A stretch of DNA of 21,207 nucleotides. Source: a virus. Each line of letters opens with the position of its first letter. Position 1 is the first letter of the stretch. Of this stretch, positions 5,181 through 20,810 are shown in pieces. Location: IMG/VR virus record IMGVR_UViG_3300010042_000024, positions 1-21,207 of that record. One strand, given 5' to 3'. The notes below the pieces were generated by a model. That model was not told where the DNA came from. It searched no databases and saw only the letters and a list, made by a program, of their open reading frames with translations. The position numbers and the translations under genes are program-made.

Positions 5181-5978
5181 CTAAATGATAGGTTCAACAA
5201 TATTTGTGATGTTTAACTTCTTCACTTGCTTACCTTGTCTGTATAGATTCCAAGCTCTTACAATCAATGATACCTTTATGGTCATGCTGATCTTCATTTT
5301 ACTGATTTTATCTTCTGTAAGCCTTTTCCTAACCCAGACAATAGTATCGTTGCTAATCTCTCTTCCGTAGCATAATTGGTTCATGAAATCTAAGGCTATT
5401 TCTTCATCTGAAACATCTTTAAAAGCCTTATAGAGACCGCCAATGATGCTTAATGGAAGTATCTTACTGAATCCAGTAAACCAATAAGAGGTTTTATTAG
5501 CTACATCTTGCCATTCATCAGGGTTTTGCTCATAAATAGCCAACAATTCCTGAGAAGTCAATTTGCCATTTCTGCTAGGTTTAAGGTGGAATCCTTTTTT
5601 TATTAGTCCCCATGATTGTATAGCAGGTGGAATAATGTGTGCATTCTTTGCTCCACCAATGTGAAATATGTCTGCGCCCGTTCTGTTAGCCCCTGTATCT
5701 ATTACACTAAAGGCGTTGTCATTAATGCCGTAAGCAATATGGAAGTTTACTCCTTGATTTGCTTTTACAATTGCCATTAGCCGGTGTTGTCCGTCTAGGA
5801 TTCTTCCTCTGTCAGAGACTTTAATAGACTCTCCGGTATTTTCTTGCCAGTTGCCTTTTAGAATCTCTTGCGAATAACGATGTACAACTGTAAGTCTTGC
5901 TTTTCTGTTGTGGGTGTTTCTGTTTAATAATTCAATAGCCCGCTCAGGAGTAATGAACTCTTGTTTAAATTCAATCAT
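5181..5978 (-). CDS. ParB-like/DGQHR-domain DNA-binding protein
   Basis: 265 aa. The N-terminal half follows the phage and mobile-element ParB-like pattern: ITPERAIELLNRNTHNRKAR, then YSQEILKGNWQENTGESIKV, then ILDGQHRLMAIVKA with the DGQHR box at residues 62-66, and later FSVIDTGANRTGADIF. In ParB relatives this box belongs to the nucleotide-binding fold. The C-terminal half is helical and less conserved. It is encoded just downstream of the RuvC-like gene, consistent with DNA handling, but the exact role of this subgroup is not established. The start is the only ATG near the gap; 32 nt separate it from the RuvC-like stop. Confidence 0.8.
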   Translation of the reverse strand: MIEFKQEFITPERAIELLNRNTHNRKARLTVVHRYSQEILKGNWQENTGESIKVSDRGRILDGQHRLMAIVKANQGVNFHIAYGINDNAFSVIDTGANRTGADIFHIGGAKNAHIIPPAIQSWGLIKKGFHLKPSRNGKLTSQELLAIYEQNPDEWQDVANKTSYWFTGFSKILPLSIIGGLYKAFKDVSDEEIALDFMNQLCYGREISNDTIVWVRKRLTEDKISKMKISMTIKVSLIVRAWNLYRQGKQVKKLNITNIVEPII

Positions 5979-12145: not shown

Positions 12146-12324
12146 GATTCTGATTTTTTAAGTGATTTAAGCCATTGATAATACTCAGGATCGGTATCTT
12201 TAATCTCACCTGCTGTCTTGCCTTTGTACTTACCGTATTTAAGTTTATGGAAGTCCTCAATACCGGAGGCCAATTGAATATTCATGTTCTTCCAATTCTT
12301 ATACTTTTTAGTCCTGTGTATCAT
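12142..12324 (-). CDS. Small ExoX C-terminal-like domain protein
   Basis: 60 aa from ATG 12324 (17-nt overlap with the RT gene), or 47 aa from the internal ATG at 12285, which avoids the overlap. The core LKYGKYKGKTAGEIKDTDPE plus YYQWLKSL follows the 'FGKYKGK..EEI...DPEYLQWL' pattern seen at the C-terminus of exonuclease X-like proteins and as stand-alone small proteins. The nuclease domain itself is absent. As the first gene after the RT it may be co-expressed with the DGR, but no link to diversification is known. Confidence 0.65.
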   Translation of the reverse strand: MIHRTKKYKNWKNMNIQLASGIEDFHKLKYGKYKGKTAGEIKDTDPEYYQWLKSLKKSES

Positions 12325-13270
12325 TTGAGAATAGTTTACGTTCTAAATTACGGCAATCAGCCCACTTCATCCATCCACGGTAAGAAGCAATAGATTCTCT
12401 ATTTGGATTATACTTCATCATTTTGGCACATTTTACTTTGATTGACTTCCTTAATAGCGTTTTATCATGGTCATTTACATAACCCAAGAAATCTAATCCC
12501 CTACTTTCAATAGGAAATATCTGATAATTGCCTTTGACATCTAATTTCAGATTATCCCATAAGTAAGCCTTTATTGCAGCCAATAGATTATGCAAGTCAT
12601 GTTTGTTGTCTGCAAATATTACCACATCATCACAATACCTAAATACATCCTTGACTTTCATTTCTTCTTTTAGCCAATGATCAAAAGGACTAAGATAGAA
12701 GTTCCCTAAGAATTGACTTAAGTAATTCCCAATAGCTAATCCCTGTGCACTATCAATAATCTCAAATAATAGCTTTAAAAGCCGTTTATCTTTGATCTTA
12801 CGCATTAACATCCATTTTAGGATATCATGGTCTACTGAAGGATAAAACTTCGTTACATCCAATTTAAGAGCGTATCTCGTTAACACCTTATTTTGTAGTG
12901 CTTTTTTAACTCCTCTTAATGCTTTGTGGATTCCCCTGCCAGTTATACAGCTAAACGTATTCTTAGTCAGATTACGCCTGAACATTTCACCTATCACTTG
13001 TAATATTGCGTGATGTATGATTCTATCTTCATATGGCAATACGTAAATCTCTCGTTCTTTAGGCTCATAGATTAAAAAGACTTTATAAGGCGGGTTCTTA
13101 TATTCACAAGCTTTCAATTTCTCATGTAACCGCCTTATATTGCCTTCTATGTCTTTTTTGAATGTTATTACGCCTCTTTGTTTTGATTTGCCCTTACAAG
13201 CGTTCTTATGAGCTAATAAGAGGTTTTGTATACTGATAATCTTATCGTACACATTATTTATTCTTTTCAT
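12308..13270 (-). CDS. DGR reverse transcriptase
   Basis: 320 aa. RT motifs in order: TRYALKLDVTKFYPSVDHDI (motif A, catalytic D138), GLAIGNYLSQFLGNFYL (residues 177-193; the S185-Q186 pair in motif 4 is the hallmark of diversity-generating retroelement RTs), RYCDDVVIFA (catalytic YxDD, D214/D215) and RGLDFLGY (residues 257-264). Length fits DGR RTs, which lack a thumb/maturase or RNase H domain. The enzyme would copy the template-repeat RNA into cDNA with adenine-specific errors, and the cDNA then replaces the variable repeat. The assignment is independently supported by the template and variable repeats just upstream. The start MKRINNVYDK follows a 214-nt non-coding region that contains the template. 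Confidence 0.95.
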   Translation of the reverse strand: MKRINNVYDKIISIQNLLLAHKNACKGKSKQRGVITFKKDIEGNIRRLHEKLKACEYKNPPYKVFLIYEPKEREIYVLPYEDRIIHHAILQVIGEMFRRNLTKNTFSCITGRGIHKALRGVKKALQNKVLTRYALKLDVTKFYPSVDHDILKWMLMRKIKDKRLLKLLFEIIDSAQGLAIGNYLSQFLGNFYLSPFDHWLKEEMKVKDVFRYCDDVVIFADNKHDLHNLLAAIKAYLWDNLKLDVKGNYQIFPIESRGLDFLGYVNDHDKTLLRKSIKVKCAKMMKYNPNRESIASYRGWMKWADCRNLERKLFSNDTQD

Positions 13271-13386
13271 TCCTTTGCTATCGGGCTGAGCCTTCGCTAA
13301 TAAAAGCTACCAACACAGTTTTTCACCCATTTATTTTTCACTATGTGAGTGAGGTCTATACCATTTCCATTTTATATAGCAATTTG
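13271..13386 (-). ncRNA. Template-to-RT spacer, part of DGR RNA (putative)
   Basis: 116 nt without an open frame between the template repeat and the RT start, on the same strand. In the Bordetella phage DGR, the RNA segment 3' of the template is needed for cDNA priming. By analogy this spacer may be part of the RT-bound RNA (inference). It holds a second copy of the 9-mer AGGCTCAGC found at the 3' end of the template (13285-13293 versus 13386-13394) and short inverted repeats (CTATA...TATAG; CACT...AGTG). The exact RNA ends are unknown. Confidence 0.5.
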
Positions 13387-13484: not shown

Positions 13485-13949
13485 TTAATATAGAAATTCT
13501 ATATATTCTTCTCGCATGATTAAAGCAACGTAATCAGCTTTATCTGATGACTGGATAGCTAAATCCGAGCCCGAATTACAAACGTTGTAGTAGTAGGAGC
13601 CAGAAGAAAAGCCGCGGGACTTGTTTCTAAAATAGTTAAACCATTTGTATTCATTTTCATTGTCCCAATTAGGAATCCAACCTTCATTGATTGCCTCAAT
13701 TACCGTTACTATTTTATGCCTTGCAAACTCTCTCTTAGCTTGCTTATCAGAACGTCCCAATGTAAATGCATCTAGTGTTAACCCGTGCCTACATAGTACC
13801 TTTAGAGCGTCTTTATATCCCTTTACACGGTCTTTAATGTCAATTAAGAAATGTTCTTCACCATGTAGGTCTATAAGGAGTTTCTTAATCTCTGCGCTAC
13901 CGTTATTATAAGCTTCTACAGCTTTTTCAAGTTCTATTTTTAGATTCAT
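13485..13949 (-). CDS. DGR target protein 1 (variable protein)
   Basis: 154 aa from the ATG at 13949 (MNLKIELEKAVEAY). The frame extends to a TTG at 13985 inside the upstream gene, but the ATG aligns with its paralogue and lies 4 nt after that gene's stop. Conserved blocks shared with the paralogue: IKKLLIDLHGEEHFLIDIKD (about 21-40), AINEGWIPNWDNENEYKWFN (about 86-105) and a C-terminal helix (DKADYVALIMREEYIEFLY). The variable segment is residues 112-128, with GFSSGSYYYNVCNSGS as its core. There is no signal peptide or membrane segment, so it is probably cytoplasmic or a virion part. From memory, Bacteroidota phages and integrative elements encode related proteins with the 'GSRLCFKSRELAEYAGKQF' C-terminal pattern. 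Ligand unknown. Confidence 0.92.
   Translation of the reverse strand: MNLKIELEKAVEAYNNGSAEIKKLLIDLHGEEHFLIDIKDRVKGYKDALKVLCRHGLTLDAFTLGRSDKQAKREFARHKIVTVIEAINEGWIPNWDNENEYKWFNYFRNKSRGFSSGSYYYNVCNSGSDLAIQSSDKADYVALIMREEYIEFLY
13565..13616 (-). repeat. DGR variable repeat 1 (VR1)
   Basis: 52 nt aligned to the 55-nt template. Nine substitutions, all at template adenines (for example AAC to GGC, AAC to TAC, AAT to GTT), and none at 36 other bases. One 3-nt in-frame deletion removes GAA from TCGAAC. At its 3' end (13565-13573) it reads CGGGCTCGG where the template has CAGGCTCAG, the expected place for IMH and IMH* elements. Confidence 0.93.
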
Positions 13950-13953
13950 AATT

Positions 13954-14424
13954 TTAGAATAAGTAATCAATGTATAATTGTGCAAATTTTACCCTAGCGT
14001 AATCCGCTAACTCTCTTGTTGGAAAGTATAAGTCCGAGCCCGAATCACAAAGGTCGTAGAAGTAGCTCGAGCTAGAAGAAAAGCATTTTTTATCTTTATC
14101 CCAATAGAAATAGTTATAGTATTTATATTCACTATAGTTCTTCCAATCAGGTTTCCAGTCCCCAATTAACGCCCTTACAATAATAGTAAGTTGGTATCTG
14201 GCATAATAACGCTTAGCATCGTCACCCATAAAGCCAAACTGCTCTATCGTAACTTGAAGAATGTTTAGCTCTTTACAGGCACTAGCATAGTCGGTAACAC
14301 GTTCTTTAACATCTGTAATAAAGTGCTCTTTTCCGTGCAGGTTGATGAGAAACTTTTTGATTTCATCATTACCATTTTTGTAGGCTTCTTGTGCTGCCTC
14401 AATTCTGATTTTTAAATGTTTCAT
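13954..14424 (-). CDS. DGR target protein 2 (variable protein)
   Basis: 156 aa, paralogue of the next gene. Shared blocks: EIKKFLINLHGKEHFITDVK (about 21-40), RALIGDWKPDWKNYSEYKYY (about 84-103) and the C-terminal TRELADYARVKFAQLYIDYL. The variable segment covers residues 114-130 (CFSSSSSYFYDLCDSGS); 26 residues follow it, unlike typical DGR targets where the variable repeat ends the protein. There is no signal peptide. It is the first gene after a terminator-like hairpin at 14451-14481. The two targets differ widely outside the shared blocks, so the duplication is old while the variable repeats stay recently template-derived. Confidence 0.92.
   Translation of the reverse strand: MKHLKIRIEAAQEAYKNGNDEIKKFLINLHGKEHFITDVKERVTDYASACKELNILQVTIEQFGFMGDDAKRYYARYQLTIIVRALIGDWKPDWKNYSEYKYYNYFYWDKDKKCFSSSSSYFYDLCDSGSDLYFPTRELADYARVKFAQLYIDYLF
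14034..14085 (-). repeat. DGR variable repeat 2 (VR2)
   Basis: 52 nt aligned without gaps to template positions 13387-13438. Twelve substitutions, all at template adenines (12 of 18), none at the other 34 bases. Changes go to G, T and C, as expected for adenine-directed random mutagenesis. Its 3' end carries the same CGGGCTCGG as VR1. Confidence 0.95.
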
Positions 14425-15638: not shown

Positions 15639-15868
15639 CTCTTTAATCTCCTTAAGAACTTAATACGTTTTAAATCTCCTTTGATAATAAGCCTATCTAC
15701 TTTATACCCTAAGCTAGTATAGGTAGCAATAAGAACATTCTTATAGCTTTCAGTATCGTAGATAATACACATCCTTTCATAAGGGATAGAACACTTATAT
15801 ATAGTGTCCCTTGTTTGAGCTAATGAAGTCGTACAGACAAACAATAGCATGGGTATAAGTAGTTTCAT
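15635..15868 (-). CDS. Small secreted protein, 77 aa
   Basis: Signal peptide MKLLIPMLLFVCTTSLAQ, cut probably after A17. The mature part has a 'NVLIATYTSLGYKVDRLIIK' helix-strand unit, like the DUF4177-type protein at 6936-7172, and a basic tail. Function unknown. The ATG lies 1 nt after the stop of the 52-aa gene. Confidence 0.7.
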   Translation of the reverse strand: MKLLIPMLLFVCTTSLAQTRDTIYKCSIPYERMCIIYDTESYKNVLIATYTSLGYKVDRLIIKGDLKRIKFLRRLKR

Positions 15869-17758: not shown

Positions 17759-18136
17759 TTAATCTTCGTTTTCTAATTCCGTTTCTAGTTCTTCAATATC
17801 AATCATATCATACAAATCAGGATTCTCTATAACATGCAGAGCAATGACGCTAGGTAGTTCGCATAGCTGATCAACTGTAAAGCCGTTAAAACTCTCTAAA
17901 TTGCCGTACCCGTTAAACTGTACGTTGTCATGTGAGTAATGATATTCACCGTAACTAATAGCCCTTGCAACTTCCATTGGTTTACCACTGAAATACACAT
18001 CAAAGAAATCCTCATCATTGGCATACACCTCTGATTCAATACTATTTTCTTGGCAGTAGGTGTTATTCAATTCAATTAACTCATCACTGTTTAAATCGTT
18101 GATAGCGTCAATAACTAAATCTTGTAAAGTTTTCAT
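17759..18136 (-). CDS. Conserved acidic phage hypothetical protein, 125 aa
   Basis: MKTLQDLVIDAINDLNSDEL start; the middle has FFDVYFSGKPMEVARAISYG and HDNVQFNGYGNLESF; acidic tail ELETELENED. From memory, the 'YF.G.P.E.ARA...G.Y' plus 'FNGYGNLES' pattern recurs in many phages, uncharacterised. Net strongly negative, so possibly a binder of host proteins, but this is unproven. Confidence 0.75.
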   Translation of the reverse strand: MKTLQDLVIDAINDLNSDELIELNNTYCQENSIESEVYANDEDFFDVYFSGKPMEVARAISYGEYHYSHDNVQFNGYGNLESFNGFTVDQLCELPSVIALHVIENPDLYDMIDIEELETELENED

Positions 18137-18724: not shown

Positions 18725-18913
18725 TTATATAAAGTACTTAGATGCCGTGAACTGTTTGTCGAAGACAACCATTGACCTGTTGCTATCAGGGTAAGACCTA
18801 ACTAGAGCCATAGCTTCATCACGTGTTAATCCCGTCCTTATAATTTGGCGTCTCCCACTAATTCTAAACACTTTAAATACTTTGTAAGTTCCAATGTAAG
18901 TTTGCATATCCAT
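18725..18913 (-). CDS. Conserved phage hypothetical protein, 62 aa
   Basis: First gene after the leader. Contains YKVFKVFRISGRRQIIRTGL, TRDEAMALVRSYPDSNRSMV and VFDKQF. From memory, 'YKVFK.FR.S.RRQ...GLT..EA.RLV.SYPDSNRSMV.F.K' is a recurring small phage protein. The fold and role are unknown. The N-terminus may start at the second ATG (MQTYIG), 2 codons in. Confidence 0.75.
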   Translation of the reverse strand: MDMQTYIGTYKVFKVFRISGRRQIIRTGLTRDEAMALVRSYPDSNRSMVVFDKQFTASKYFI

Positions 18914-19286
18914 ATGTTTTAAGGTTTATAAATGTCATCTGTATTTACATCGGCTTTGAACGATACACTAAATCAATAGTATGCTACATTACATATTTCT
19001 CGTAGCGTGATGACTCACTAACACTAGTTGCTCGCTTTACAAGGTGTCGTTATGTTCACCGTTGCGGAGTCGTCTAAACCCCTATTCTATTAAGCCGTTA
19101 CACTTAATATCACGCCTGTTATTTTGATTCGGGTTAATCAGGTATTCGCTCCCTATCCATTTCGTTGGCACACGGTAAGTGACGTAACACTCACATACGT
19201 ATTGCTTAAGCCAATAACTCTTATTTCATTAAATTGATTATTCTAATCTAAGCAAGGAATCTTTATTTGGTACTATTCCTTATTGA
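18914..19286 (-). ncRNA. Structured 5' leader / putative ncRNA, no gene
   Basis: About 370 nt between the promoter at 19292-19322 and the first leftward gene, with no credible open frame. It is less AT-rich than its surroundings. Local hairpins on the minus strand: AAGGAAU...AUUCCUU right at the predicted 5' end (19253-19280, 14-nt loop); GUGAGUG...CACUUAC; UGAUU...AAUCA; AUUAAG...CUUAAU; GUGA...UCAC. This could be a regulatory leader, an abundant phage ncRNA, or both. I do not match it to a known riboswitch or tRNA. Confidence 0.5.
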
Positions 19287-19291
19287 CATAA

Positions 19292-19322
19292 CAAATATAC
19301 AACGATATATTAATATATGCAA
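19292..19322 (-). promoter_or_regulatory. Bacteroidota-type promoter for leftward operon
   Basis: -33 TTG at 19322-19320 and -7 TATATTTG (TAnnTTTG) at 19299-19292, separated by 20 nt. It is the only copy of this full layout I found on the minus strand. The spacer holds a perfect 14-bp palindrome ATATATTAATATAT (19305-19318) that could be an operator. Predicted transcription starts near 19286. Confidence 0.75.
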
Positions 19323-19352
19323 GAATATCACAATATATATTTACAACAAAAC

Positions 19353-19374
19353 AAAAAAGGGACAATAAAGCCCC
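19353..19374 (-). terminator. Rho-independent terminator of the 19405-19761 gene
   Basis: On the minus strand: GGGGC, 6-nt loop, GUCCC (one G-U pair), then UUUUUU. It lies 31 nt after the gene's stop and just upstream of the main leftward promoter, so it separates the two transcripts. Confidence 0.7.
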
Positions 19375-19404
19375 TCTAACACACCAATAACCCAATAAAC
19401 TATT

Positions 19405-19761
19405 TTATAAAAACTTACTAACCTCCCTCAACGCCTTATCCGTTGGATATAACTTATTAAATACTCCTGACTTATCAGCCATAACCAAACCTTTAGAAAT
19501 CAATCTTTCAATACAACCAACTAAAACACGCTTAGACGCTCCATTCCTCTTATCATACATTCTGTCAAAAACTCCTGTAGTACTACTATAAACACCAAAC
19601 TCATTAAACCTGTCACATATAATCAATAACGCAACAAAAGAATTAAAGCTAATCCTATATGATAAAATGTAAGAATGAATCTCAAAGATGCTTTTTACCC
19701 CGAATGACTTAGAAGGTGATTTCTTCACTCTCCTAGAGCTTGTATTCACGCTATTTATCAT
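19405..19761 (-). CDS. Winged-helix-like putative regulator
   Basis: 118 aa from ATG 19761; a GTG at 19770 would add 3 residues. Basic N-terminus (TSSRRVKKSPSKSFGVK), then a helical region (HSYILSYRISFNSFVALLII). The C-terminal part resembles a winged helix with a recognition-helix-like stretch RVLVGCIERLISKGLVMADK and a wing ending in KLYPTDKALREV. It has its own terminator, and its start faces the divergent rightward operon, a typical position for a phage lysogeny or copy-control repressor. DNA binding is inferred from fold and place. Confidence 0.65.
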   Translation of the reverse strand: MINSVNTSSRRVKKSPSKSFGVKSIFEIHSYILSYRISFNSFVALLIICDRFNEFGVYSSTTGVFDRMYDKRNGASKRVLVGCIERLISKGLVMADKSGVFNKLYPTDKALREVSKFL

Positions 19762-19774
19762 TGTATTCACGCCT

Positions 19775-19805
19775 CAAAATAACATAATAATAATGACATA
19801 GACAA
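19775..19805 (-). promoter_or_regulatory. Possible promoter of 19405-19761 gene
   Basis: -33-like TTG at 19805-19803 and a -7-like TATTTTG at 19781-19775 (one base shorter than TAnnTTTG), 21 nt apart. It would give a leader of under 10 nt before ATG 19761. Weak match. Confidence 0.35.
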
Positions 19806-20284
19806 TATGGAGCGTTTTAAATGAGGTAATGACCATTAGTGGGACAACAGTACAACACAATAGAGATAGTGCATTACAATCAATGAAAGGCAGCTTAACA
19901 ACAATACTATCACTAATCCAAACTAGTTAGTCATTCATTCTATCCTATCAATTCATTCAATCAATACCTATCAGTAATATTTTCATTCCATTTCATGGGG
20001 CAGGGGATCGAGAATGATTCGTTTTGGTTTTGGGAGGCAAGGGGGTTGTTGTGAGGGAGTCCTCCGTTCAACAGATATGTATACCCTATTTACTTAAAGT
20101 ACCTTATCGAAAGAGATACGTTCGTTTACTTATAATTTTATATACCTAGATATTGTTTAAATAGTGCGAAAACGAGTTTTAGTTATTTTATGTGCAATAA
20201 TCATCGTTTACGATATCAATAGCAGTGTTTTTAGGGGTATCAATATGTTAGGGTATTACCTTATTTAATTACACTATCAAATAT
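19806..20284. other. Non-coding divergent control region
   Basis: About 480 nt with no credible gene on either strand. It contains TCATTCATTC/CCTATCA-type short direct repeats (about 19928-19978), a G-run cluster (19997-20057), the palindrome AACTAGTT near 19921-19928, three TAGGG(G)TAT copies and the ATCG-TTTA-CGAT inverted repeat. It sits between two divergent regulator-like genes, so it is a likely operator and perhaps origin region. Confidence 0.5.
20081..20256. repeat. TAGGG(G)TAT repeats, candidate operator
   Basis: Three copies: ATACCCTA at 20081-20088 (inverse orientation), TTAGGGGTAT at 20231-20240 and TTAGGGTAT at 20248-20256. The last two are 17 nt apart in direct orientation and lie 30-50 nt upstream of the rightward promoter. 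Short and AT-flanked, so chance is not excluded. Confidence 0.4.
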
Positions 20285-20287
20285 TTG

Positions 20288-20317
20288 TTGTTTAATCATT
20301 TATTTGTTATACCTTTG
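20288..20317 (+). promoter_or_regulatory. Bacteroidota-type promoter for rightward operon
   Basis: -33 TTG at 20288-20290 (another at 20285-20287) and -7 TACCTTTG at 20310-20317, 19 nt apart. The ATG at 20322 is only 4 nt past the -7 box, so the transcript would be leaderless or nearly so, unless translation starts at the in-frame ATG at 20370. Confidence 0.7.
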
Positions 20318-20321
20318 GTGT

Positions 20322-20810
20322 ATGGAAATTTTAAAGAAAAGAGAATTTAAGCCTAATTACAATGAGGCTATGTTGGGTGTTAACCCTTTTCTGGACAATC
20401 TGGTGATTGAGGTTAGTGAGGTTGCTTATAAGAATCATTACAAGAAGGATAAGGATGGGGATTTGATACCTATGATTAGTGAGGTGGAGAGTGAGAAGAA
20501 GTGTTCTTTGTTTGTTGCGTCTGAGAAAAGGTTACGGGCGAATAAGCTTAGTCCTCGGGCGAAGGAGTTGTATTTGTGGTTGTTGTATGAGGCTGACAAT
20601 GGAAAAGACTACATGTGGTTGAATAGGGTAAGGTATATGAAGGAGAATGACATCTCATCTCCGACTACTTATAGGTCTGCTATAAATGAGCTTATTTCGA
20701 GTGGCTTTGTTACTAGGACAGTTGTTGGGGGCGTGTATTGGTTGAATCCGGCTTTGTTCTTTAATGGCAATCGTATTATAAAGTTCCCAAGTAAAGTTAA
20801 ACATAGATAA
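20322..20810 (+). CDS. RepL-like winged-helix replication/regulatory protein
   Basis: 162 aa from ATG 20322; the frame is open to a TTG at 20304, but that codon lies upstream of the -7 box. The C-terminal part (about residues 60-160) is winged-helix-like: LYLWLLYEADNGKDYMWLNR, SPTTYRSAINELISSGFVTR, then GGVYWLNPALFFNGNRII. This is like plasmid RepL proteins, whose tail reads 'YxINPxxFFxG'. Such proteins bind the origin or act as regulators. The codon use is G-rich (GAG, AAG, TTG, GGG) compared with the A-rich neighbouring genes, which suggests a different history. Whether it starts replication or regulates is open. Confidence 0.7.
   Translation: MEILKKREFKPNYNEAMLGVNPFLDNLVIEVSEVAYKNHYKKDKDGDLIPMISEVESEKKCSLFVASEKRLRANKLSPRAKELYLWLLYEADNGKDYMWLNRVRYMKENDISSPTTYRSAINELISSGFVTRTVVGGVYWLNPALFFNGNRIIKFPSKVKHR

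Follow-up and report, generated by a model that had tools for sequence, protein, structure and literature searches.

Ribozymes in phage transcripts and the leader of the window

In the haloviruses HF1 and HF2, excerpts of one report place a hammerhead ribozyme 13 nt before the first open reading frame (ORF) of an early polycistronic transcript, the RNA 5' end of which was mapped within 3 nt of the hammerhead cleavage site (PMC3088659). The same excerpts describe clustered prophage hammerheads that flank genes and whose proposed function is to divide long transcripts into mRNAs the length of an operon or a gene (PMC3088659). Theta (HDV-like) ribozymes are linked to tRNA 3' trailers in the sections cited, and a part in the RNA processing of gut phages is proposed for them (PMC10879173). 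For bacteria and their phages more generally, passages of the literature state that it is unknown why hammerheads and twisters associate with Mu-like phage genes (PMC10085705), and describe the role of bacterial and phage twisters as unknown or speculative (PMC10085705, PMC5408937).

The locus analyzed here lies in a 21,207-base virus record, taken as a whole and referred to as the window. Its genes are nearly all encoded by the minus strand and form a tight block that runs from about 18.9 kb down to position 1. As in the described portion of the HF1/HF2 system, a putative ribozyme is located just before the first ORF of the early transcript (17 nt here, as opposed to 13 nt). However, the halovirus ribozyme is a hammerhead from a virus of an archaeal host and its RNA end is mapped, whereas the corresponding end in the window is predicted. 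The clustered prophage hammerheads, as excerpted, also flank phage genes; in contrast, the element in the window is of the twister class, single, and part of a leader. Unlike the theta ribozymes, as those sections present them, it has no tRNA nearby, and the window as a whole yielded none. Although the class of ribozyme is a known one, its placement and likely job in these phages are of interest; no papers on twisters in crAss-like phages were found in open-licence PMC text.

The initial annotation described this region as about 370 nt of non-coding leader behind the main promoter, and that description holds. Over the full minus strand of the window, the promoter pattern typical of Bacteroidota, which we take to be TTG-N20-TATATTTG, occurs once (Table 1), and the 5' end of the early transcript is placed near 19285 on the basis of this match, at a presumed offset from it. 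Between 18914 and 19272 there is no ORF of at least 40 aa on either strand, which rules out a missed coding gene of that size; the longest ORF is 37 aa, with a TTG start, on the plus strand. A 40-aa ORF with a TTG start (19273-19395) overlaps the promoter. With no ORF of at least 40 aa between about 19285 and the ATG at 18913, the existence of a long leader is confirmed. Other gaps had been said to span a few nucleotides. The gap that contains the leader (18914-19404, 491 nt) is indeed the largest within the minus-strand gene block, but seven further gaps measure 65-214 nt. Upstream of the promoter there is a terminator-like hairpin, which may shield it from transcription of the gene located at 19405-19770.

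On the plus strand at 19283-19311, a sigma-70-like sequence (TTGACA-17-TATATT, 11/12 positions) overlaps the leader promoter on the opposite strand, and the promoter reading thus depends on a Bacteroidota host. Such a host is suggested, although not proved, by the protein similarities of the reverse transcriptase (RT), discussed below, and of a DUF7666 protein, which is 35% identical to proteins of Cellulophaga phages.

The leader had also been called less AT-rich and rich in hairpins. Its GC content (36.1%, compared with 35.0% for the window) differs in the direction claimed, but trivially, and its hairpins occur at chance level. The z-score for folding of the whole leader is -1.07, with 14 of 100 dinucleotide shuffles equally or more stable, and 60-nt leader windows (n=16) have a mean z of 0.02, compared with -0.08 for 60 random minus-strand windows. 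On this basis, folding does not count as evidence that the leader is special. The twister described below is absent from the unconstrained minimum-energy fold of the leader, and both of its pseudoknots are beyond that folding's model.

The twister match and its structure

The initial annotation had proposed a search of structured-RNA libraries. A permissive Rfam search of the leader detected a type-P1 twister (RF03160) at 18995-18931 on the minus strand, within the last 80 nt of the leader. The match scores 42.3 bits (cmscan) and covers the model end to end (1-68 of 68), with an E-value that depends on the search space: 2.1e-6 for the whole window, 1.5e-7 for 1.6 kb and 3.8e-8 for 396 nt. A default Rfam search misses it, because 42.3 bits is below the gathering score of 67.2, which is a curation threshold and not a structural feature; at gathering scores, no Rfam family matched anywhere in the window. 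Besides the twister, no family reached E<=5 in 18800-20400. The idea that the leader contains a structured functional RNA is upheld in the form of the predicted twister, while antitermination and a host-targeting non-coding RNA, also suggested originally, found no support in this search.

The sequence, the helices and both pseudoknots match the twister class. In the window, 20 of 21 pairs are formed, across all helices and both pseudoknots, and the alignment also includes the UAA element with the scissile U-A, the GC insertion, the loop GUUCAAAGCC, GUAAA and GAUGA. The pseudoknots T1 and T2 constitute an extra test, because neither RF03160 nor the independent model introduced below (R1) pairs them. 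T1 is a compensated UCA/UGA where the Rfam consensus has CCC/GGG, and the same T1 letters are found at two other sites (L168 and L171). Compared with RF03160, the element shares the full-length match, the UAA cleavage element, P1-P4, both pseudoknots and the AAGCC and UAAA core; it differs in its sub-threshold score, in T1 and P4 letters altered by paired changes, and in a weak P1.

Twisters are described as cleaving at the U-A step in the excerpts cited (PMC6154101, PMC5408937). In these excerpts, P1 is reported to be dispensable for cleavage (PMC5408937, PMC6154101), and P1-less twisters to cleave at near wild-type rate (PMC5408937). Thus the weak P1 in the window, with three consecutive pairs, does not preclude activity, and it would make separation of the cleavage products easy. 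Judged from its sequence, the element almost certainly belongs to the type-P1 twister class, and it is very likely to be active in cleavage.

Table 1. Predicted features of the leader and the head of the operon
Feature	Position	Strand	Basis or detail
Terminator-like hairpin and T tract, upstream of promoter	19356..19377	-	Weak: 1 found vs 0.9 expected in shuffles
Bacteroidota-type promoter, TTG-N20-TATATTTG	19292..19322	-	Only minus-strand match in whole window; consensus presumed
Leader RNA fragment, ~295 nt, released by predicted cut	18991..19285	-	Predicted from promoter and cleavage site
Type-P1 twister self-cleaving ribozyme, full model length (putative)	18931..18995	-	RF03160 and own model R1
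P1	18994-18992/18934-18932	-	AUG/CAU; 3/4 pairs, U-U at outer position
Predicted self-cleavage bond U18991/A18990	18990..18991	-	Homology with twister U-A site, as described in excerpts
P2	18988-18985/18943-18940	-	UGUA/UACA; 4/4 pairs
Pseudoknot T2	18984-18983/18954-18953	-	GC/GC; 2/2 pairs
P3 (optional helix)	18982-18977/18970-18965	-	AUACUA/UAGUGU; 6/6 pairs, G-U allowed
P4	18964-18962/18951-18949	-	AUC/GAU; 3/3 pairs
Pseudoknot T1	18959-18957/18937-18935	-	UCA/UGA; 3/3 pairs
77-nt 5' UTR after predicted cut (ribozyme body and 17-nt AT-rich spacer)	18914..18990	-	Sequence and ORF start
First operon ORF, 62 aa	18725..18913	-	ATG 17 nt past last ribozyme base; no family found

An independent covariance model was derived from other sites. 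Viral contigs and part of the genome contigs were scanned for the twister core, and a filter on the UAA element, P2, P4, T1 and T2 was passed by 31 of 171 distinct core matches, the window included. The genome-contig scan covered at least 119 stretches, and three loci (L055, L124 and L127) passed the filter among the matches listed; it gives nothing firm on the frequency of twisters in cellular genomes. The resulting alignment (A2) has 28 rows, leaving out the window and two loci with a long P3 (L127 and L183). In A2, paired cells amount to 95.7% and both partners vary in 18 of the 21 pairs, while shifting the partner by 1-3 columns reduces pairing to 27-43%. The high pairing of P2, P4, T1 and T2 is partly selected, since the filter required these elements. 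Double changes are also found in 4/4 pairs of P1 and 5/5 pairs of P3, helices that had no filter threshold, although they helped to choose the alignment register. The window keeps all 20 columns that are invariant in A2, several of which were fixed by the search pattern used to find the other sites.

The model built from A2 (R1), from which the window was excluded, supplies the covariance modelling that had been suggested as a check. With filters off, it matches the window at 18997-18929 over its full length (1-66 of 66), with 57.6 bits and an E-value of 5.3e-13; the runner-up in the window, among 15 places listed, reaches 10.6 bits (E 1.2). Over 72 loci, R1 yields 56 matches at E<=1. Of these, 49 reach E<=1.1e-7, and the window ranks 37th among the 49, within the range of the others. 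Copies outside the filter list are added as well, such as more sites in L030, L171 and L176. Scoring against RF03160 was confined to the window.

Distribution and context of related sites

R1 matches are present in 23 of 32 whole records. Of these 23, 20 were picked for a known site and two via DNA similarity, the last being the window itself. One record of 79.6 kb (G021, the same as L030) has eight twisters on the minus strand at 15902-28851, within 13 kb and in several cases between genes, and five records (G009, G010, G012, G018 and G025) have two each. Two are crAss-like phages: Burzaovirus coli cr7_1 (NC_055895.1, L193), with a twister at 15765-15827, and Burzaovirus faecalis cr124_1 (NC_055899.1, L194), with one at 39699-39761. 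Both of these score 68.3 bits, are located 63 nt before a CDS and are unannotated.

R1 detected no twister in five other crAss-like records (picked for their RT), and none is found in seven contigs that share the RT (L002-L008) or in L230, the nearest relative by neighboring gene, whose counterpart of the 18155-18511 gene is 52% identical. The presence of twisters is thus sporadic. No DNA match to the leader was found in 50,697 phage records, and the genes at 17759-18136 and 5181-5978 led to no relatives in viral contigs; the 62-aa first gene has one short match (L010). A syntenic leader in relatives was rejected, since L002-L008 and L230 lack the twister and named phages have no DNA match. 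The conserved structure that had been anticipated in relatives is seen at the level of the twister class, in many phage contigs, and is missing from those relatives that share genes with the window and were reached here.

The surroundings of the sites were compared across 46 sites. An initial 44 omitted identical copies (L181, L182, L184 and L188), seven weak matches (L014, L024, L027, L041, L044, L169 and the second L185 site) and the three genome-contig sites; L193 and L194 were then added. The counts are not of independent events, because L016/L020/L035, L173/L189 and L178/L193/L194 are related and G021 contributes seven of its eight copies. Half of the sites (23 of 46) are followed within 60 nt by the ATG of an ORF of at least 40 aa, compared with 28.9% of 1840 random same-strand positions. 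Where a following gene was called (39 sites), it shares the strand of the ribozyme in 36 cases. By simple gene calls, the closest upstream ORF is also on the same strand at 35 of 43 sites, which therefore look intergenic rather than like leaders.

The 45 nt before the cut fold with z<=-2 at 21 of 46 sites, compared with 4/46 and 6/45 further upstream and 10/45 and 4/44 downstream. The upstream stem often stops 4-9 nt before the cleavage bond, and looks as if it were a cap for the new 3' end. Strong hairpins just before the cut were seen in L176, L030, L171, L178, L043, L186 and others. The window has no hairpin at this position (z 0.0). A competing "anti-ribozyme" helix between an upstream GCUAC and the GUAGC of P2 is present in the window, but such complementarity was not enriched at the 45 sites compared (L017 was left out), none of which reached p<=0.05.

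Both the proximity of start codons and the upstream hairpins fit phage mRNA processing at gene starts. It may be, though this is tentative and on balance doubtful, that hairpin, twister and start codon form a cassette for protein-free operon punctuation in many dsDNA phages, crAss-like phages included. If so, upstream RNA would receive a hairpin-capped 3' end, much as at a terminator but with no termination involved, and the gene that follows would gain a short 5' end made by processing; the leader in the window would then be a hairpin-less variant at the head of an early operon. The cassette draws on related sites and simple gene calls, and is the most novel part of the analysis.

Possible roles of the leader ribozyme, and the reverse transcriptase region

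In the proposed mechanism, the early transcript would start near 19285 and the twister would fold once transcribed. The RNA would then be self-cleaved at the U18991/A18990 bond, which lies 77 nt upstream of the first start codon. The released leader fragment, about 295 nt long, would end in a 2',3'-cyclic phosphate, and the operon mRNA would begin with a 5'-OH. Self-cleavage and these ends are predicted from membership in the twister class. The 5' end of the mRNA would then be processed constitutively and without protein; the operon could thereby have a fixed 5' end, regardless of the upstream sequence, and altered stability or translation. That the leader twister processes the early operon mRNA is probably the best explanation overall; for constitutive, protein-free 5'-end processing as its actual function, which is read from context, the chances are about even. 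A twister 17 nt before the first gene of an early operon would give this ribozyme class a concrete role in the protein-free processing of phage mRNA ends, and comparable placements exist in crAss-like genomes with complete records. Default Rfam searches can miss ribozymes in phage leaders, and long "empty" leaders merit scans with permissive models.

The released leader could itself be what matters. A stable short RNA is possible, because self-cleavage would release a 5' fragment of about 295 nt, and such a phage small RNA, with its 3' end made by the ribozyme, might have RNAs of the host or the phage as targets. The length of the leader and its lack of coding sequence fit this, and the cut would define that 3' end. 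However, the leader has no Rfam family of its own beside the twister, folds locally at chance level and lacks DNA matches among the phage records searched, and at most other sites the same-strand upstream ORFs suggest intergenic positions instead of leaders. A small-RNA role is thus unlikely.

It may also be that the twister is a decaying or passenger element with no present function, spread among phages by mobile exchange. Its absence from the seven RT relatives, from L230 and from five of seven crAss-like records (those five chosen by RT) would be expected of a passenger. Against this, the window retains 20 of 21 pairs and every invariant A2 column, even if the search pattern fixed several of those columns, and both halves of T1 have changed from the Rfam consensus. 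A passenger origin is therefore improbable, and processing of the operon mRNA is still preferred.

A put- or nut-like antitermination element for crossing a 19-kb operon would suit a leader that follows the promoter of so long an operon and has several local hairpins, but is highly improbable, as those hairpins are at chance level, no Rfam family matches, and a leader-cutting ribozyme would sever such a cis-acting RNA from the nascent mRNA. Rejoining of the 5'-OH and cyclic-phosphate ends by a ligase into spliced or circular RNA, for which the records with two or eight twisters (five and one of the 23) might speak, has equally little to recommend it, since the window has only one ribozyme and, although a host ligase could still act, phage-encoded ligation is disfavored by a set of 22 records, 17 of them with a twister, in which RtcB is absent and a single record has an RNA_ligase domain.

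Elsewhere in the window, the RT gene (12308-13270, minus strand) is about 50% identical to RTs of crAss-like phages. In the gap just upstream of it lies a weak match (13254-13356, minus strand) to the Rfam RT-17 RNA, with 29 bits (cut-off 40.4) and an E-value of 0.065, and two phrog_11581 ORFs (13485-13985 and 13954-14424, minus strand) adjoin the RT. A scan for direct-orientation template/variable repeat pairs found none in the window; if the RT region is a diversity-generating element, its target may lie outside. The RT homologues of the twister-bearing cr7_1 and G011 have three and two in-frame TAG codons, respectively, and the RT of the window has none. Stop-codon recoding in some of these phages is possible.
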